Source of the DNA: an uncultured delta proteobacterium
Lineage (GTDB): Bacteria > RBG-13-61-14 > DRUE01
Direction: 5' to 3'
Length of the DNA stretch: 17,994 nucleotides
Assembly: GCA_903930515.1 (NCBI GenBank)
Contig: CAIYYW010000243.1
Location: forward strand, 1 to 17,994
Shown here: in pieces, positions 10,188 to 17,889 of the stretch
Layout of the letters: each line of letters opens with the position of its first letter
How positions within the stretch are numbered: the first letter of the stretch is position 1
The notes under the pieces: generated by a model
Told to the model about the DNA's origin: nothing
The model's database searches: none
What the model saw: only the letters and a program-made list of their open reading frames with translations
Made by a program: the position numbers and the translations under genes

Positions 10188-10697
10188 ATGAAAGAAACAA
10201 GTCCTTCAGAGATAAAATCTGTTCTGAAAAGGGTGGAATCGTCCCTGCCGGCCAAGCGCGCCAGTCTGGTCCCCGCTTTGCAGATGGTCCAGGAAAAACT
10301 GGGATGGCTGCCCAAGCTGGCGATGCTCGGGATCGGCAAATACCTGAAGGTCCCGGAGAGCGAGGTCTGGGGAACCGCCAGTTTTTACGCCCAGTTCCGG
10401 TTCAAGCCGGTCGGGGAAAATATCCTGACCGTCTGTCGCGGGACCGCCTGCCATATTTGCGGAAGCGCCGCGATTCTGCGGGACCTGGAACGGGAAGTCG
10501 GGGTCAAGGCCGGGGAGACCACTCCGGACTTGAAATTCACCATCCAGCAGGTGGCCTGCTTCGGGTCTTGCGCGGTCGCGCCGGTGCTGGTGGCGAACGG
10601 CAAGGTTTACGGACGGCAGACCAGCCCGTCAATGAAAAAGTTATTGGGCCGGATAAAAAAATCAACCTCAACGAAAGCGAAATCCAAAAAATCCTGA
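10188..10697 (+). CDS. NuoE/HndA-like [2Fe-2S] subunit of the formate dehydrogenase complex
   Basis: A 169-residue thioredoxin-like ferredoxin of the NADH dehydrogenase 24-kDa (NuoE) family. Helical residues 1-75 include the typical LVPALQMVQEKLGWLP and VWGTASFYAQF. The [2Fe-2S] cluster ligands are C83 and C88 (CRGTAC) and C124 and C128 (CFGSC). It passes electrons to or from the FMN/Fe-S NuoF-type subunit encoded next. The length suits the family except for a lysine/serine-rich C-terminal tail (157-169). It is the first gene of a three-gene operon with a NuoF fusion and FdhA, which is the arrangement of soluble NAD(P)-dependent formate dehydrogenases and HydABC-type bifurcating enzymes, not of membrane complex I. 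GGGGAGG upstream of the ATG gives a strong start. Confidence 0.9.
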   Translation: MKETSPSEIKSVLKRVESSLPAKRASLVPALQMVQEKLGWLPKLAMLGIGKYLKVPESEVWGTASFYAQFRFKPVGENILTVCRGTACHICGSAAILRDLEREVGVKAGETTPDLKFTIQQVACFGSCAVAPVLVANGKVYGRQTSPSMKKLLGRIKKSTSTKAKSKKS

Positions 10698-10728
10698 TTG
10701 CTTTCAAGAAATCCTGATCACTTTGAGG
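10689..10728 (+). repeat. Imperfect 20-bp tandem duplication at the first operon junction
   Basis: Two adjacent 20-base units (10689-10708 and 10709-10728) match at 16 of 20 positions and both contain AAATCCTGAT. The first copy includes the NuoE stop codon. The second runs into the Shine-Dalgarno site of the next gene. Confidence 0.6.
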
Positions 10729-10738
10729 AGGACTTAAC

Positions 10739-13700
10739 TTGAACCTGAACCAACTCCGGGAAAAGGCCAGGGCGGAATATCAGAAGCTCGGCGGCGGTCA
10801 TCTGCCGGCGATCTTTGTCGGGAACGCCACCTGCGGCCAGGCAGCGGGCGCGATGGAGCTGATGGACCTGATCCCGGCCGAGCTGAAGAAGCTTAAGGTC
10901 CGGGCGCGGATCATCCCGGTCGGCTGCATCGGCGTCTGCTGTTATGAGCCGCTGGTGGACATCCAGATTCCGGGCCAACCCCGGATCTGCTATCACCGGA
11001 TGACCTTGCCAAAACTCAGAAAAATACTCCGCGACTACCTGGTCAAGGGAGACCCGCATCCGGAACTCGCGCTCGGGATCGTGGGCGAGGGCAAGCTGGA
11101 CGGGATCCCGTCCCTCTTTGATCACCCTATGCTCAAGCCCCAGCTCCGGATCGTGCTCAAGAATTGCGGGATCATTGATCCGGAAAAAATGGATCATTAC
11201 CTGGCCAGGGACGGGTTCCTGGGCCTGGAAAAAGCCTTGGCGATGAGTCCGGAAGCCGTGATTGAGGAGATGAAAAAATCAGGGTTGCAAGGAAGGGGCG
11301 GCGCCGGTTTTTCCACCGGTCAGAAATGGGGGTTCGCCCGCAAGGCCAAAGGCGCGGACAAATACCTGATCTGCAACGCGGACGAGGGAGACCTGGGGGC
11401 GTTTATGGACCGGTCGCTCCTGGAAGGAGACCCGTTCGCGATCCTGGAGGGGATGGTGATTGCCGGCTATGCGATCGGAGCCGGCCACGGATACATTTAT
11501 TGCCGCGCGGAATATCCGCTTGCGATCAAGCGCCTCCAGATCGCGATGGCTCAGATGGAAAAGGCCAACCTGCTCGGACAAAATATTTTAGGCTCCGGAT
11601 TTGATTTACAGCTCAAGATCAAGGAAGGCGCCGGCGCGTTCGTGTGCGGGGAAGAGACCGCGCTGATCGCGAGCATTGAAGGGAAACGCGGGATGCCCAG
11701 ACAGCGTCCCCCCTTCCCGGCCCAGGCCGGCCTGTTCGGGAAGCCGACCAATATCAATAATGTGGAGACCTTCGGCAATGTGCCGCATATTTTGCGCCAG
11801 GGAGCGGCCTGGTACGCGGGCTTCGGCACGGAAAAAAGCAAGGGAACGAAAACCTTTGCCCTGACCGGAAAGGTCAAGCGCACCGGCCTGATTGAAGTGC
11901 CCATGGGGATCAAGCTCAAGGACATTGTTTTCGGGATCGGCGGCGGAATCCTCAACGATAAAAAATTCAAGGCCGCGCAAACCGGCGGCCCCTCGGGCGG
12001 ATGCATCCCGGCTGAGTATCTTGATCTTCCGATGGATTATGAGCATCTGGCGGAAGTCGGCTCCATTATGGGCTCGGGCGGCCTGGTGATCCTGGACGAG
12101 GACACCTGTATGGTTGATCTGGCCAGATACTTTTTGGCCTTCACCCAGAACGAGTCGTGCGGGAAATGCACGCCTTGTCGGATCGGCACGCGCCAGATGC
12201 TGAAAATTTTGGAAGAAATTTGCGAGGGCAAAGGCCGGCCCGGGGATATTGAACTTCTGCTGGAGATCGGGGACACCATCAAGAAGGCCAGCCTGTGCGG
12301 CCTGGGCCAGACCGCTCCCAACCCGGTGATCACCACCATCAAGTATTTCCGCGAGGAATATGTGGAGCACATCAAGGACAAGAAATGCCGCGCCGCGGTC
12401 TGCCCGGAGATCGTGCAAGCTCCTTGCAAGCATACCTGCCCGGCCAATGTGGACGCGCCCAGATACATCCGGCTGGTGGAGCAGGGAGATTTTGCCTCGG
12501 CGCGAAAAGTGGTCCAGGAGAAAATACCGTTCGCCTGGGTCTGCGGATTGGTCTGCGCTCATCCCTGCGAGACCCGCTGCAAGCGCGGGAGCGTGGACGC
12601 GCCGATCGCGATCCGGGTTCTGAAACGGGCAGCCGTGCAATTCGGGGCCGGGGTGAGCGATCCCGCGAAGATGTTGGTCAAGGCCCGCGGGAAGAAGATC
12701 GCGGTGATCGGTTCCGGCCCGGCCGGTCTGACCGCGGCGTATTATTTGCGCAAGCTCTGCGGTTATGAGGTTACGGTGTTTGAAGCCCTGCCCAAGCCGG
12801 GCGGGATGCTCCGATACGGCATCCCGGAATTCCGTCTTCCGCAAAAAGTTCTGGACGCGGAAATCGCCCGGATAAAAAAGCTCGGGGTCAAGATCAGGCT
12901 CAATCAAAAAATTGAAAACCCGGACTCGCTCCGGAAAAAGTTTGACGCCATCTTTGTCGGGGTGGGCGCGCACGAAAATGTCAGGTTGAAAATTCCGGGA
13001 GAGGATTTGGAGGGGATGCTCAACTGCGTGACCCTGCTCCGGGAGGTGAAGCTGGGAAAGAAGATCAAGCTCGGTCAAGATGTGGCCGTGATCGGCGGGG
13101 GCAATTCCGCGATTGACGCGGCCCGGACCGCGCTCCGCCTCGGCGCGAAAAATGTCTCCATCCTCTACCGGAGAACCGAAAGAGAAATGCCGGCCAATGC
13201 GGAGGAGATTGAGCAAGCCAAGGATGAGGGGATCAAACTGGAAATTCTGGTCGCGCCTCTGCAAGCGGAAAAGAAAAACGGAAGAATCCGGCTGCGGCTT
13301 CAGAGAATGGAATTGGGAGAGGCGGACCGGAGCGGAAGGCCGCGTCCGGTTCCGGTCAAGGGAAGCGGGTTTGATTTGGAGTTTGACCAGGTGATCGCCG
13401 CGATCGGACAAAGACCGGGCACGGATGCCAAGATGGGGCTTGCGCTGAATCAAGACGGCGCCATCAAGCTCAACCCGGACACGCTGGAAACCAGCCTGCC
13501 CGGAATTTTCGCCGGAGGAGACGCGGCGCTCGGCCCGGCCTCGGTGATTGAAGCGATCGCGATGGGACGGAAAGCCGCAATCGCGATTGACCGTTCCCTG
13601 GGCGGGAAAGGGGTGATTGACGAGAAGCTCGCGCCGGAAACCGCGGGGATGAAAAAGCTGCCTCGCCCGGAAGAGACCGGGGAGCGGAAGCGGCCGGGAA

Positions 13701-13822
13701 TGAAATACTTGAACGCCGGTCAAAGGATCAAAGGGTTCAGGCAGGTGGAATGCGGATACAGCAAACAACAGTCAACCAAAGAAGCGTCAAGGTGTTTGCA
13801 GTGCGACCTGGAAGAGAAATAA
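10739..13822 (+). CDS. NuoF-type NAD-binding flavoprotein fused to a GltD/NfnB-like oxidoreductase
   Basis: A 1027-residue fusion. Order: Trx-like Fe-S domain (about 20-100; C32, C63, C67); NuoF FMN/NAD domain (about 180-345) with GRGGAGF (185-191), CNADEGDLGAFMDR (212-225) and GEETALIASIEG; SLBB-like part; [4Fe-4S] region C474, C477, C480, C520; DPYD/GltD-type Fe-S domain (about 550-620) with C550, C555, C563, C567, C602, C606, C610, C614; then a two-dinucleotide-fold flavoprotein with FAD motif GSGPAG (658-663), NAD(P) motif VIGGGNSAIDAA (784-795), YRRTEREMPA (810-819) and closing FAGGDAA (924-930). The RR pair is where GltD/NfnB relatives hold the NADPH 2'-phosphate. So the protein should carry NAD and NADP sites plus FMN and FAD. 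It starts at TTG 10739, 7 bases after GAGGAGG (10725-10731); no nearby ATG exists. It is 12 bases upstream of FdhA. Confidence 0.85.
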   Translation: MNLNQLREKARAEYQKLGGGHLPAIFVGNATCGQAAGAMELMDLIPAELKKLKVRARIIPVGCIGVCCYEPLVDIQIPGQPRICYHRMTLPKLRKILRDYLVKGDPHPELALGIVGEGKLDGIPSLFDHPMLKPQLRIVLKNCGIIDPEKMDHYLARDGFLGLEKALAMSPEAVIEEMKKSGLQGRGGAGFSTGQKWGFARKAKGADKYLICNADEGDLGAFMDRSLLEGDPFAILEGMVIAGYAIGAGHGYIYCRAEYPLAIKRLQIAMAQMEKANLLGQNILGSGFDLQLKIKEGAGAFVCGEETALIASIEGKRGMPRQRPPFPAQAGLFGKPTNINNVETFGNVPHILRQGAAWYAGFGTEKSKGTKTFALTGKVKRTGLIEVPMGIKLKDIVFGIGGGILNDKKFKAAQTGGPSGGCIPAEYLDLPMDYEHLAEVGSIMGSGGLVILDEDTCMVDLARYFLAFTQNESCGKCTPCRIGTRQMLKILEEICEGKGRPGDIELLLEIGDTIKKASLCGLGQTAPNPVITTIKYFREEYVEHIKDKKCRAAVCPEIVQAPCKHTCPANVDAPRYIRLVEQGDFASARKVVQEKIPFAWVCGLVCAHPCETRCKRGSVDAPIAIRVLKRAAVQFGAGVSDPAKMLVKARGKKIAVIGSGPAGLTAAYYLRKLCGYEVTVFEALPKPGGMLRYGIPEFRLPQKVLDAEIARIKKLGVKIRLNQKIENPDSLRKKFDAIFVGVGAHENVRLKIPGEDLEGMLNCVTLLREVKLGKKIKLGQDVAVIGGGNSAIDAARTALRLGAKNVSILYRRTEREMPANAEEIEQAKDEGIKLEILVAPLQAEKKNGRIRLRLQRMELGEADRSGRPRPVPVKGSGFDLEFDQVIAAIGQRPGTDAKMGLALNQDGAIKLNPDTLETSLPGIFAGGDAALGPASVIEAIAMGRKAAIAIDRSLGGKGVIDEKLAPETAGMKKLPRPEETGERKRPGMKYLNAGQRIKGFRQVECGYSKQQSTKEASRCLQCDLEEK

Positions 13823-13834
13823 GGAGCGGCAAAA

Positions 13835-16522
13835 ATGACCGAACCGGGAAAAGTACGACTGAGCATAGACGGGAAAGAAATTGAGACGAGTGCCAAAGCG
13901 ACGGTGCTGGATGCGGCGAAGCAGGCCGGGATTCACATCCCGACCCTGTGCGCGGACGATCAGCTCGCGCCTTATGCCGGATGCCGGCTCTGCATTGTGG
14001 AGATAGAAAAGATGCGCGGACTGCCCCCCTCCTGCGCCACCAATGTGGCGGAGGGAATGGTGGTCCGGACCAATACCCCGGAGCTGCACCGGGTCCGGAA
14101 GATGCTGATGGAGATGCTTTTATCCGACCATCCCTACGACTGTCTCGCCTGCGCCAAAAACCTCCATTGCGAGCTTCAGAAAATGGCAGAGGAATTCGGC
14201 ATCCGCGAGCGCAAGCTCCGGCATCTAACCCGCGAGAGCGTCTTGGACGAGTCCAATGCCTTTTATTCCCGGGATATGACAAAATGCGTCCTCTGCGCCA
14301 AGTGCGTGCGCGCCTGCAAAGAGATCAACGGCGTGACTGCGATTGACCTCAGCGGCCGGGGCTTCAACAGCATCGTCCAGCCCTTCGGGGACGGGCCGAT
14401 CAGCGAGAGCGTATGCGAGAGCTGCGGCGAATGCGTGGAGCGGTGCCCGACCGCGGCGCTCAGCATCAAGAAGCAGGTCTGGCCGGACAAGGAAGTTTCA
14501 ACCATTTGCCCCTATTGCGGGACCGGATGCGGGATCCTGCTCGGGATCAAGGACGGAAAAATCGTGGGAGTGCGCGGGGACAAGAACAACCCGGTCAGCC
14601 GGGGGCAGCTCTGCGTGAAGGGAAGGTTCGGCGCGTTTGAATTCATCGGTCATCCTGCCCGCTTGAAAAAGCCTTTGCTCAAAAAGAACGGCGAGTTCGT
14701 GGAAGCGTCCTGGCCGGAGGCCCTGGATTATATGGCGGAAAAGCTCAAGCCCTACATCGGCGCCGACCGGTTCGCCGCGCTCTCTTCCGCCAAATGCACC
14801 AACGAGGAGAACTATTTGATGCAGAAATTCGCCCGGGCCGTGATGAAGACCAATAATATTGATCACTGCGCGAGATTATGCCACGCCTCAACCGTGGCCG
14901 GGCTTGCGGATTCTTTCGGCAGCGGCGCGATGACCAACAGCATTGACGAATTCCGGGACGCCGAGTTGATCCTGGTCACCGGGTCCAATACCACCGAGAA
15001 CCATCCCATCATCGGATACCGCATCCGCGAGGCGCTCCGCAAGGGCGCGAAATTGATCGTGTTTGACCCGCGCGAAACCTGGCTCGCCAACCAGGCCTGG
15101 CTCTGGTGCCGGCAAAAACCCGGAACCGATGTGGCCTGGATCAACGGCCTGATCCGGATCATCTTGAAGGAAGGGCTGGAAAATAAAAAATTCATTTCGG
15201 AGCGGACCGAGGGGTTTGAGGACTTGAAAAAAACCGTTGATAAATACACCCCGGAATATGTCTCCAAGATCAGCGGCGTCCCTGAAGAGCAGCTCTTTCA
15301 AGCCGCCCGCGCTTACGCCACCGCTGGAAAATCCAGCATCCTCTATTCTATGGGCATCACCCAGCACAGCCACGGCACGGACAATGTCCAATCCCTCGCC
15401 AACCTGGCAATGGTCTGCGGACAGATCGGCAGGGCGGCCACCGGCGTCAATCCCCTGCGCGGCCAGAACAATGTCCAGGGGGCCTGCGATTTGGGCGCGC
15501 TCCCCGATGTCTTCCCCGGATATCAAAAAGTCGCGGATGAAGCGCTCCGGAAAAAATTTGAGGACGCCTGGGGGGTTCCGCTTTCATCCCATCCCGGCCT
15601 GACCATCGTGGAGATGCTGAACGCGGCCGCAGACGGAAAGATCAAGGCGCTTTATATTATGGGCGAAAACCCTCTGCTCTCCGACCCGGATTTACATCAT
15701 GTGGAGCAGGGGCTGAAAGCGCTTGATTTTCTGGTGGTGCAGGACATCTTTCTCACCGAAACCGCCCAGCTCGCGGATCTGGTTCTCCCCAGCGCATGTT
15801 TCGCGGAAAAGGAAGGCACTTTCACCAATACCGAGCGGAGGGTGCAGCTATTGAATAAAGCCCTGGACCCGCCCGGGGAGGCCAAACCCGACTGGGAAAT
15901 TATTTGTGAGCTGGCTGACAGATTGGGTTACCCGATGAGCTATCCTGATCCCGCGGAGATTATGGAAGAGGCGCGCAAGCTGACCCCGCAATACCACGGG
16001 ATCAGCCATTCCCGTCTGAAAGGCGGCTGCGATCTGTGCTGGCCCTGCCCGAATCAGGACCATCCCGGCGCCAGGATTCTGCACCAGGATCGGTTCACGC
16101 GCGGGAAGGGGAAATTCACCGCGATTGAGCATCTTGGCCCGGCCGAGCTTCCGGACAAACAGTACCCGTTCACGCTCATCACCGGCAGGATCCTATATCA
16201 TTTCCATACCGGGACCATGACCCGAAAGAGCGCCGGCCTGAACCAGATCGTGCCCGGACCCTATGCCGAGTTGAACCCGGTTGACGCGAAAAAGATGAAA
16301 GTCAAAAACGGGGACCAGCTCCGGGTCGCAAGCCGGCGCGGAGAGATCAAGGTCGCGGCCCGCGTCACCGAGGTGGTCAATATCGGCGAGCTTTTCATCC
16401 CATTCCATTTCTATGAAGGCGCCGCCAATGTCCTCACCAACCCCGCCTTGGACCCGGTGGCGAAGATCCCGGAATTCAAGGTGTGCGCGGTCAAGGTTGA
16501 AAAAGCAGCAGGGGAAAAGTAG
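13835..16522 (+). CDS. fdhA: Formate dehydrogenase catalytic (alpha) subunit, cysteine type
   Basis: An 895-residue cytoplasmic molybdopterin enzyme oxidising formate to CO2 (or reducing CO2). The N-terminal NuoG-like Fe-S chain has [2Fe-2S] C39, C50, C53, C67; His-Cys3 cluster H99, C103, C106, C112; and two [4Fe-4S] clusters C151/C154/C157/C161 and C194/C197/C200/C204. The catalytic part binds a [4Fe-4S] cluster (C225, C228, C232, C260) and a bis-MGD Mo or W cofactor. The metal ligand is C349 with neighbouring H350 in RLCHASTVAGL, where selenium-type enzymes have Sec; the codon is TGC. The C-terminal MGD-binding domain includes TLITGRILYHFHTGTMTR. Unusually, the segment before WPCP reads GGCDLCWPCP, giving C732/C735/C738 in a C-x2-C-x2-C pattern. 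AAGGAG (13821-13826) overlaps the previous gene's stop, so translation is tightly coupled. No transmembrane segment or twin-arginine signal is seen. Confidence 0.93.
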   Translation: MTEPGKVRLSIDGKEIETSAKATVLDAAKQAGIHIPTLCADDQLAPYAGCRLCIVEIEKMRGLPPSCATNVAEGMVVRTNTPELHRVRKMLMEMLLSDHPYDCLACAKNLHCELQKMAEEFGIRERKLRHLTRESVLDESNAFYSRDMTKCVLCAKCVRACKEINGVTAIDLSGRGFNSIVQPFGDGPISESVCESCGECVERCPTAALSIKKQVWPDKEVSTICPYCGTGCGILLGIKDGKIVGVRGDKNNPVSRGQLCVKGRFGAFEFIGHPARLKKPLLKKNGEFVEASWPEALDYMAEKLKPYIGADRFAALSSAKCTNEENYLMQKFARAVMKTNNIDHCARLCHASTVAGLADSFGSGAMTNSIDEFRDAELILVTGSNTTENHPIIGYRIREALRKGAKLIVFDPRETWLANQAWLWCRQKPGTDVAWINGLIRIILKEGLENKKFISERTEGFEDLKKTVDKYTPEYVSKISGVPEEQLFQAARAYATAGKSSILYSMGITQHSHGTDNVQSLANLAMVCGQIGRAATGVNPLRGQNNVQGACDLGALPDVFPGYQKVADEALRKKFEDAWGVPLSSHPGLTIVEMLNAAADGKIKALYIMGENPLLSDPDLHHVEQGLKALDFLVVQDIFLTETAQLADLVLPSACFAEKEGTFTNTERRVQLLNKALDPPGEAKPDWEIICELADRLGYPMSYPDPAEIMEEARKLTPQYHGISHSRLKGGCDLCWPCPNQDHPGARILHQDRFTRGKGKFTAIEHLGPAELPDKQYPFTLITGRILYHFHTGTMTRKSAGLNQIVPGPYAELNPVDAKKMKVKNGDQLRVASRRGEIKVAARVTEVVNIGELFIPFHFYEGAANVLTNPALDPVAKIPEFKVCAVKVEKAAGEK

Positions 16523-16560: not shown

Positions 16561-16587
16561 AAAACGCGAAACCCGGCTTCGCTTTTT
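16561..16587. terminator. Bidirectional Rho-independent terminator
   Basis: GCGAA (16566-16570), a 7-base loop and TTCGC (16578-16582) form a hairpin followed by TTTTT on the plus strand and preceded by AAAA, which gives a T run on the minus strand. It lies between the convergent ends of fdhA (16522) and the Fe-S protein gene (16645) and can serve both. Confidence 0.65.
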
Positions 16588-16644: not shown

Positions 16645-17889
16645 TCACCGGAACTTGCGCCACACGCTCCAGGCATTCCGGAGATATCCGGGGGTGCTTT
16701 TGAGCAGGAGCGAGAGCATCGTTGCCGGAGGCGCCTGGTAGTTTCGGTTGGTCTCCATTTCAATGGCTTTCTCCTTGTCGCACGCAACCTTGCACAACCC
16801 GCAGCCGATGCATCTCAGCAACAGATGCTCATAAGTCTTGCCCCGGGTGTCCATCTTGATCGCGGCCATCGGGCAGGCCAAAGCGCATTTGCCGCAATAG
16901 CTGCATTTTGTCGGATCCACCCTGGGCAGGAAATGGGGCGGGGCGATGTTGCCGGGCGCGTTGAATTCGGTAACGGTCCTGAGCATATGACAGCAACAGC
17001 CGCAGCAGGAGCAGGACCCGGAGGTGCCCTGTCCCGACTCCTCATAGATCATCCAGTTCACCAGACCCGCGGCTTCCGCCTCCATCTTGATCTCCAGAGC
17101 TTCCTTCTTGCTAACCTTCCGGTGCAATCCGCGCGCCACCGCAACCTCGGTCCAGGGGCCCATCATCAGGCAGTTCTCCTTCGGCCTCCCGCAACCCCGG
17201 CCCATAATTTCCTCCGCCATCCGGCATTGGCAATTGGTCACCCCGAAAGATGAATACCGGTCCAGGATCCCCTCCATCTGGTCGGCCGGAAGGGCCATCG
17301 GATGCGCCCCGATCGCCTGCCCGACCGGCACATAGCGCACAATCGGAGAAGCATGCTCGGCGTAATCCACGAAGTATCCGGTCTCCCACAAAGCCTCAAA
17401 CAACGCGGCGAAGCCGCGGTTCCAATCCGTGAGCGAATCCATTGAGGTCCGCATCATTGAATGTTCAAAGGCGCCCGGCACAATCGGCATCAAATAAAAA
17501 ATCCTGGTCCCGTCCTTCTCCCGGCTGATGATCACCCGCTTCTCAAACGCCAGCCGGTCCATAATCAAAGCCGCCTCCGACTCCGTCCGATGCTCCGCCT
17601 TGGCCAACTCCGAAGCGCTCTTGCCGAACAGCGGCCTAAGATGCCTCACCAATCCCGCCTCTTCCTCCGTGAACATATGCCGGATCAACGCGATCAGCTC
17701 GTCGCAAATCGGAGGCCCCAACAGCAACGGGCTGGAATATAACTTGGAAACTTCCAGCAACGCCGATGCCACTTCCGGATAGTCCCCGATACTCCGCATC
17801 CGGACCTTACGAGCCTTAGCCTCCTTCGGCCCGATCACGCCCGCCTCAATCCGGATGATCCTGCTCCGCGCTTCTTTCTCCTTGCTCAT
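16645..17889 (-). CDS. Winged-helix-like and multi-cluster 4Fe-4S protein
   Basis: A 414-residue protein of a family I know only as 4Fe-4S dicluster proteins in anaerobes. Residues about 72-135 look like a winged helix (TEEEAGLVRHLRPLFGKSA through RVIISREKDGTRIFYL). The middle (about 135-300) has NCQCR (C220, C222), C233, C240 and a dense cysteine run at 293-300 (C293, C295, C296, C298, C299, C300) before HML. The C-terminus has two classical [4Fe-4S] motifs, C329/C332/C335/C339 and C360/C363/C366/C370. No membrane helix or signal is evident. It could be a redox-responsive regulator, an assembly factor or an electron carrier; the neighbouring formate dehydrogenase makes a link plausible but unproven. 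It has no Shine-Dalgarno site, and a promoter ends 6 bases before the ATG. Confidence 0.75.
   Translation of the reverse strand: MSKEKEARSRIIRIEAGVIGPKEAKARKVRMRSIGDYPEVASALLEVSKLYSSPLLLGPPICDELIALIRHMFTEEEAGLVRHLRPLFGKSASELAKAEHRTESEAALIMDRLAFEKRVIISREKDGTRIFYLMPIVPGAFEHSMMRTSMDSLTDWNRGFAALFEALWETGYFVDYAEHASPIVRYVPVGQAIGAHPMALPADQMEGILDRYSSFGVTNCQCRMAEEIMGRGCGRPKENCLMMGPWTEVAVARGLHRKVSKKEALEIKMEAEAAGLVNWMIYEESGQGTSGSCSCCGCCCHMLRTVTEFNAPGNIAPPHFLPRVDPTKCSYCGKCALACPMAAIKMDTRGKTYEHLLLRCIGCGLCKVACDKEKAIEMETNRNYQAPPATMLSLLLKSTPGYLRNAWSVWRKFR

Follow-up and report, generated by a model that had tools for sequence, protein, structure and literature searches.

A BfuB-GltD fusion in a formate dehydrogenase operon of an uncultured delta proteobacterium, with a predicted NADP(H) module in place of the ferredoxin domain

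The stretch of DNA analysed here (the window) is an entire contig of 17,994 bp (G000:C243) from an uncultured delta proteobacterium and contains an operon of three genes, nuoE, nuoF-gltD and fdhA. The second gene encodes a 1027-residue protein in which a NuoF/HydB-like subunit of the Bfu enzymes (BfuB) is fused to a GltD-type flavoprotein module. The operon probably encodes a soluble formate dehydrogenase with three subunits, built like the Bfu enzymes (HydABC-like), in which the ferredoxin outlet has been swapped for an NADP(H) outlet, making it a reversible formate:NADP(H) enzyme; we put the probability of this reading at roughly 55%.

The position of the GltD module within the fusion was revealed by alignment. 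In unfused BfuB proteins, the last Cys of the B2 cluster is followed by a ferredoxin domain with two [4Fe-4S] clusters (B3/B4), whereas in the fusions the Fer4_20 domain begins straight after Cys555. No Fer4 match was found in the fusion by Pfam, and the B3/B4 domain by which Bfu proteins are recognized (IPR017896) is missing from it. Judged from the aligned proteins, the GltD module replaces B3/B4 exactly and is not an addition to a complete HydB core. The junction between the last B2 ligand and the first ligand of the distal GltD cluster had a length of seven residues in all 50 full-length fusions. A gap of this length caps the Calpha separation of the two ligands at about 30 A, and electron transfer from B2 to GltD is plausible given such a junction. 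In the sister genome, the only other one of the genus, the fusion gene was found split across contig ends (aa 1-448 and 601-1027), and the junction is therefore documented within the genus by one assembly only.

The three genes lie on one strand as a compact operon with intergenic gaps of 41 and 12 bp and good Shine-Dalgarno sites. A preliminary description of this DNA had reported NuoE, a NuoF-GltD fusion and FdhA as its products, and the three open reading frames were confirmed by Pfam and NCBIfam. The NuoF and flavoprotein parts of the fusion were recovered by Pfam as Complex1_51K (aa 178-349), SLBB (373-421), NADH_4Fe-4S (460-544), Fer4_20 (548-634) and Pyr_redox_2 (653-943). FdhA was shown to contain Fer2_4, NADH-G_4Fe-4S_3, Fer4, Molybdop_Fe4S4, Molybdopterin and Molydop_binding domains and scored over its full length above the NCBIfam equivalog cut-off for Fdh-alpha, TIGR01591 (878 bits vs 666); its active-site Cys349 is encoded at 14879-14881. 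No GltD domain was found in the window FdhA by Pfam, GltD being located at the C-terminus of subunit B. The orthologous FdhA gene of another genome (L041:9231-11909, G002:C16) has an in-frame stop near the position of this Cys, which suggests a selenocysteine at the active site of the G002 enzyme where the window enzyme has Cys.

The nearest solved relatives of the NuoF half were Bfu/HydB proteins of bifurcating enzymes, namely those of A. mobile NiFe-Bfu, StnB and C. saccharolyticus NfnB. Matches to PF01512 and PF10589 identified the flavin mononucleotide (FMN) domain and the B1 site of the Bfu proteins, and Cys474/477/480/520 were invariant among 49 other full-length fusions. All B2 ligands are present in the window. 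The diagnostic His of B2 (His544) was found in 49/49 of these fusions, as were Ala221 and Met223 of the Bfu FMN/NAD site, which correspond to A202 and M204 in A. mobile. The B1 and B2 ligands including the His, as well as the Ala and Met, were tied to bifurcation by Schut et al., who described non-bifurcating homologues without the His (PMC9304861). A plain complex I NuoF was ruled out by the B2 His together with the GAFMDR signature; a separate NuoF-like gene of 432 aa was found on contig C278 of the genome. In the B5 region, Cys63 and Cys67 are kept and Cys32 is present, with an ambiguous match for the fourth ligand in the alignment; StnB is without two of the four. Adjoining the Bfu signature residues, aa 219 (GDLGAFMDR) is Leu in the window vs Pro in the 49 other full fusions and in unfused relatives.

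The motifs VIGGGNSA and YRRTEREMPA, noticed earlier in the added flavoprotein, are located at aa 784-791 and 810-819, and GGG and YRR were kept in at least 47 of the 49 fusions. A GGGNxA...YRR motif predicts use of NADP(H), and in the T. onnurineus NADP-dependent formate dehydrogenase Fdh3B the 2'-phosphate site has been assigned to two Arg residues of the NADPH pocket (PMC8965080). In a HMMER alignment, the C-terminal RCLQC segment matched the N-terminal part of T. maritima NfnL (query 438-478 vs NfnL 4-43), and the module is thus a circular permutation of the type found in StnC. We take the distal cluster, by analogy with dihydropyrimidine dehydrogenase, to be bound by Cys563, Cys614, Cys1019 and Cys1022 and the proximal cluster by Cys567, Cys606, Cys610 and Lys629. 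The B1 and B2 ligands (with the His) and the distal and proximal GltD Cys residues were invariant in 49/49 full fusions, except for the variable position 495 and one sequence that was short at the C-terminal pair. Position 629, Lys in the window, was Lys in 40, His in eight and Arg in one of the 49 fusions. The proximal ligand is Lys in StnC vs Glu in NfnB, and the flavin adenine dinucleotide (FAD) of StnC has been described as non-bifurcating (PMC10482914). An NfnB-like bifurcating flavin is therefore unsupported, and an NfnB-type FAD was rejected as the default because Lys629 stands where NfnB has Glu. Thus, of the earlier proposal that a HydB-like core is joined to an NfnB-like module, a Bfu core with an NADP(H)-type GltD stands, but the GltD takes the place of B3/B4 and is of the StnC type by its permuted Cys pair and its Lys.

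An AlphaFold2 model of the fusion from a 69-sequence alignment had a predicted local distance difference test score (pLDDT) of 90.6 and a predicted template modelling score of 0.85 (single-sequence AlphaFold2: pLDDT 35.6). The model matched C. saccharolyticus NfnB (9bp5_B) with a Z of 56.7 and 1.7 A over 530 residues, and its GltD half matched the StnC-type chains 9bov_A and 8oh5_C.

The fusion was found in nine out of 60 mostly unrelated genomes, and a further scan of named genomes gave at least about 60 more fusions from at least 18 phyla. As 49 other full-length sequences have this architecture and retain the cluster ligands, the window fusion is not due to chance. Neighbours were read at 73 fusion loci among the matches listed, a sample biased towards the query; the partner was the [FeFe]-hydrogenase HydA at 21 loci, FdhA at 13, a short Fe-S protein with a glutamate-synthase-like protein at 11 and an Fe-S subunit only at 14, with a contig end at 10 and other genes at four. 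The fusion thus serves as a core whose input subunits can be exchanged.

The NuoF part of the window fusion showed 69-73% identity to unfused BfuBs of Fdh-Bfu enzymes from G002, a genome of the same order, and G026. After the sister genome, the best matches of FdhA and NuoE came from the same group of loci as these NuoF relatives, those of NuoE being the nuoE genes within these Fdh-Bfu operons. By these matches, the FdhA, NuoE and NuoF parts of the window are orthologous to Fdh-Bfu enzymes that retain the ferredoxin domain. A 48-row tree placed the window, its G002 and G026 relatives and the fused L052 in one starred clade in which fused and unfused proteins were mixed, and the grouping of every fused B (NuoF) domain into one clade was rejected (delta lnL 219, p-AU 2.25e-7). 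Since the fused B domains do not form one clade, the C-terminal outlet has been exchanged, in one or the other direction, with the rest of the complex remaining constant. This exchange is claimed within the Fdh-Bfu clade of the window and does not extend to an independent GltD origin for the window; trees of the GltD part did not place the origin of its module, as neither one clade of fused GltD (p 0.62) nor a grouping of window and L052 (p 0.46) was rejected.

Within Moorella, the fusion was present in 10 of 11 genomes, one copy being truncated at the end of a contig, and all eight loci read had a HydA motif next to the fusion. One such locus (L051) consists of six adjoining genes encoding, in order, DRTGG, HydC, ATPase-like, thioredoxin (Trx), fusion (1011 aa) and HydA proteins, and its fusion is about 52% identical to that of the window. 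The window fusion shares its architecture, with GltD fused at the C-terminus, all cluster ligands and the seven-residue junction. A hexameric [FeFe]-hydrogenase, HydABCDEF, which reduces NADP with H2, has been purified from M. thermoacetica DSM 521 (Rosenbaum and Mueller 2024, doi 10.1111/febs.16989, as cited in PMC11328732 and PMC13040438), and extracts of cells grown on H2 + CO2 showed an H2 + NADP+ activity of 1.06 U/mg (PMC13040438). From gene number and context, we infer that L051 encodes HydABCDEF. The HydABCDEF genes were reported to be absent from some Moorella species (PMC11328732), which does not quite match the 10 of 11 genomes found here. The architecture is widespread and not a one-off, with a Moorella hydrogenase version that appears to match the purified NADP+-reducing enzyme. 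The window enzyme shares with HydABCDEF, as represented by L051, the BfuB-GltD fusion, a NuoE-like subunit and the NuoG-like Fe-S arm of the catalytic subunit, but it is encoded by three genes, with FdhA instead of an H-cluster hydrogenase domain and without the extra DRTGG, ATPase-like and Trx subunits. In the literature searched, no description of NuoF/HydB-GltD fusions was found, the Moorella hydrogenase having been reached via citation only, and none of a formate (FdhA) version of the fusion enzyme.

Several other known systems share parts of this organization. Type 1 Fdh-Bfu enzymes (Schut et al. 2022, PMC9304861) likewise combine NuoE and a BfuB core with an FdhA whose pterin domain is in the BfuA position, whereas the BfuB of the window carries GltD and is without B3/B4 (IPR017896, part of the search definition of that family). 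The best structural matches were with the Stn/Nfn-Bfu enzymes (S. ovata StnABC, PMC10482914; C. saccharolyticus, 9bov; T. sibiricus, 9n5u), which have a Bfu core and a permuted GltD with Lys. In Stn, however, GltD forms part of the NuoG-like subunit C, and B3/B4 is retained in StnB; the window enzyme has its GltD on subunit B, and its subunit A is a genuine FdhA that carries an active-site Cys. A complete Stn-like operon was found elsewhere in the genome of the window (L048:1628-7668, G000:C35), with NuoE, an unfused BfuB and a 1246-aa GltD/NuoG-like subunit, so that, in addition to the fusion enzyme, the host seems to possess a transhydrogenase linked to ferredoxin. In the NADP-dependent formate dehydrogenases of M. 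thermoacetica (SfrB2-SfrA2-FdhF3) and T. onnurineus (Fdh3), GltD-like proteins occur as separate subunits. These enzymes also connect FdhA to a GltD-like NADP(H) module with the Arg pair for the 2'-phosphate, but, judged by their descriptions, have no Bfu core with FMN/NAD sites between the two. NfnAB of T. maritima and P. furiosus shares the GltD/NfnL fold, two [4Fe-4S] clusters, FAD and the NADP(H) motif; it differs by its N-terminal Cys pair, Glu proximal ligand and bifurcating FAD, and has no NuoF core.

In the proposed formate:NADP(H) enzyme, with clusters and flavins bound as predicted, formate would be oxidized at the Mo/W site of FdhA and electrons would travel along the Fe-S arm of FdhA to reach B1 and FMN, and onward via NuoE/B2 and the two GltD [4Fe-4S] clusters to FAD and NADP+. 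This path is drawn by analogy with related enzymes, and NADP(H) would presumably suffice as the only nicotinamide for turnover. The reverse reaction, NADPH-driven CO2 reduction, would be equally possible. With E' values of about -270 mV for NADH and -370 mV for NADPH and an E0' of -432 mV for CO2/formate (PMC13040438), CO2/formate and NADPH are energetically close. The host genome contains one canonical cytosolic FdhA, formyltetrahydrofolate ligase and one distant Fe-hydrogenase-like protein; when searched, it showed no CdhC and no canonical pyruvate formate-lyase. Either NADPH-driven supply of formate for one-carbon metabolism or oxidation of formate from outside would suit this host.

Some points weigh against this reading. 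The whole bifurcation gate (His544, Ala221, Met223 and the NAD/FMN site) was kept in 49/49 fusions, and a simple NADP wire would not need a gate. The identity of L051 with HydABCDEF goes by gene count and context. Besides, in the crude-extract assays of H2 + NADP+, trace NAD or ferredoxin may have been present. The first of these points favors a ferredoxin-free bifurcation, which we regard as a tentative and rather unlikely alternative. The FMN/B2/NuoE gate would then work; NAD(H) would act at FMN as the partner of high potential, NADP(H) on GltD would take over the low-potential role of ferredoxin, and formate/CO2 would be coupled obligatorily to both, so that one complex would split formate electrons between NAD+ and NADP+ or merge NADH and NADPH for CO2 reduction. 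In addition to the conserved residues of B1, B2 and the FMN/NAD site (Ala221/Met223), the GltD clusters are in the exact place of B3/B4, and such coupling would be energetically sensible for CO2 reduction, given the NADH, NADPH and formate potentials (PMC13040438). However, the Moorella hydrogenase of seemingly the same architecture was reported to work with H2 + NADP+ alone (PMC13040438), the HydB of Syntrophomonas wolfei, which is without B3/B4, does not bifurcate (PMC11406978), and the oxidation of formate with NADP+, being energetically favorable or close to equilibrium by itself, needs no coupling. If the alternative were true, hydrogenase and other input subunits in many phyla would be combined with the same ferredoxin-free cartridge.

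An uncoupled enzyme of dual specificity is improbable. The GltD module would swing back onto the FdhA Fe-S arm, NAD at FMN and NADP at FAD would be two outlets working independently, and formate, NAD(H) and NADP(H) would be equilibrated. The corresponding permuted module of StnC delivers electrons to the NuoG-like arm (C7-C6-C5...) and not to B2 (PMC10482914), and the window module is of the StnC type by Lys629 and its permutation. The invariant junction, however, binds the distal cluster to B2 and not to the arm, and uncoupled equilibration of NAD and NADP would short-circuit both pools. The clusters of NfnL in NfnAB pass electrons to ferredoxin, and a GltD [4Fe-4S] pair acting as such a port would make a four-substrate enzyme. 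This is highly improbable: T. onnurineus Fdh3 slowly reduces ferredoxin, but its catalytic subunit alone equalled that activity (PMC8965080), B3/B4 is absent, and Lys629 is as in the non-bifurcating StnC and not the Glu of NfnB. With B3/B4 replaced by GltD, the suggestion in the preliminary description that one complex links formate, NAD, NADP and perhaps ferredoxin is left without a structural basis for its last part, and ferredoxin coupling is unlikely; the link of formate, NAD and NADP is plausible from the operon with FdhA.

Table 1. Features of the operon region and of the fusion protein (positions in the window)
Feature	Position	Strand	Basis
NuoE/HydC/BfuC-like subunit, thioredoxin-like [2Fe-2S] (cluster C1), 169 aa	10188..10697	+	Open reading frame, Pfam PF01257, NCBIfam
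Shine-Dalgarno AGGAGG, 7 nt 5' of the TTG of the fusion	10726..10731	+	Sequence match
BfuB(NuoF/HydB)-GltD fusion, 1027 aa, TTG start	10739..13822	+	Open reading frame, Pfam, alignments, AlphaFold2 model
N-terminal thioredoxin-like domain, B5 region, Cys32/63/67	10808..11083	+	Alignments
FMN/NAD(H)-binding domain Complex1_51K, aa 178-349, Bfu signature GAFMDR	11270..11785	+	Pfam; signature from PMC9304861
Predicted B1 [4Fe-4S], Cys474/477/480/520; B2 [2Fe-2S], Cys457/Cys495/His544/Cys550/Cys555	12107..12403	+	Alignments; ligand identities from PMC9304861
Predicted GltD-type two-[4Fe-4S] domain Fer4_20, aa 548-634; distal Cys563/Cys614; proximal Cys567/Cys606/Cys610/Lys629	12380..12640	+	Pfam, alignments; analogy with dihydropyrimidine dehydrogenase and StnC
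Junction Cys555-(7 residues)-Cys563, last B2 ligand to first distal GltD ligand	12401..12427	+	Alignment
Predicted FAD/NADP(H)-binding module Pyr_redox_2, aa 653-943; GGGNSA and YRR (Arg811-Arg812)	12695..13567	+	Pfam, alignments
C-terminal Cys1019-x2-Cys1022 (distal cluster), counterpart by permutation of the N-terminal Cys pair in NfnL/GltD	13793..13804	+	HMMER alignment
FdhA, 895 aa: NuoG-like Fe-S arm and Mo/W-bis(pyranopterin guanine dinucleotide) formate dehydrogenase domain	13835..16522	+	Open reading frame, Pfam, NCBIfam
Terminator-like hairpin with T tail, 44 bp past the FdhA stop	16566..16582	+	Consensus match only

Convergent with fdhA, a gene at 16645-17889 on the minus strand encodes a protein of 414 aa that has a CSCCGCCC motif and, at its C-terminus, a two-[4Fe-4S] domain. 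A 720-aa open frame at 11606-13768 on the minus strand lies wholly within the fusion gene; nothing supports it as a gene, and it has the look of an artefact caused by the reading frame of the fusion gene. In L049:2027-3613 (G000:C245, from the genome of the window) and L045:11266-12846, and in addition at about ten fusion loci, a protein of 528 aa with PF01645 as its only match adjoins a fused or unfused BfuB and a short NuoG-like Fe-S protein; PF01645 being the FMN region of glutamate synthase, this is possibly an undescribed third-substrate module of Bfu enzymes. In loci from Omnitrophota, Elusimicrobiota and one Thermoplasmatota contig (L117, L118, L119, L120 and L123), a subunit of about 700 aa with an Fe-S arm and GltD was found beside NuoE and an unfused BfuB, and would be a short StnC without the pterin-like domain. 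By eye, genes like HdrC, HdrB and HdrA flank the fusion in L042:1-10763 (G056) and L044, and L042 also has genes like MvhD, MvhG and MvhA, hinting at larger complexes that may unite Hdr/Mvh with the fusion.

The census of Bfu enzymes by Schut et al. demanded the ferredoxin domain IPR017896 (PMC9304861), by which GltD-fused BfuBs would have dropped out; enzymes with a GltD outlet are common, yet would be missed by such a census. The exchange of the outlet alone among close formate dehydrogenases amounts to a natural experiment on the B2 gate without its ferredoxin partner, and bears on predictions of whether the formate and H2 metabolism of uncultured anaerobes feeds NADPH or ferredoxin.

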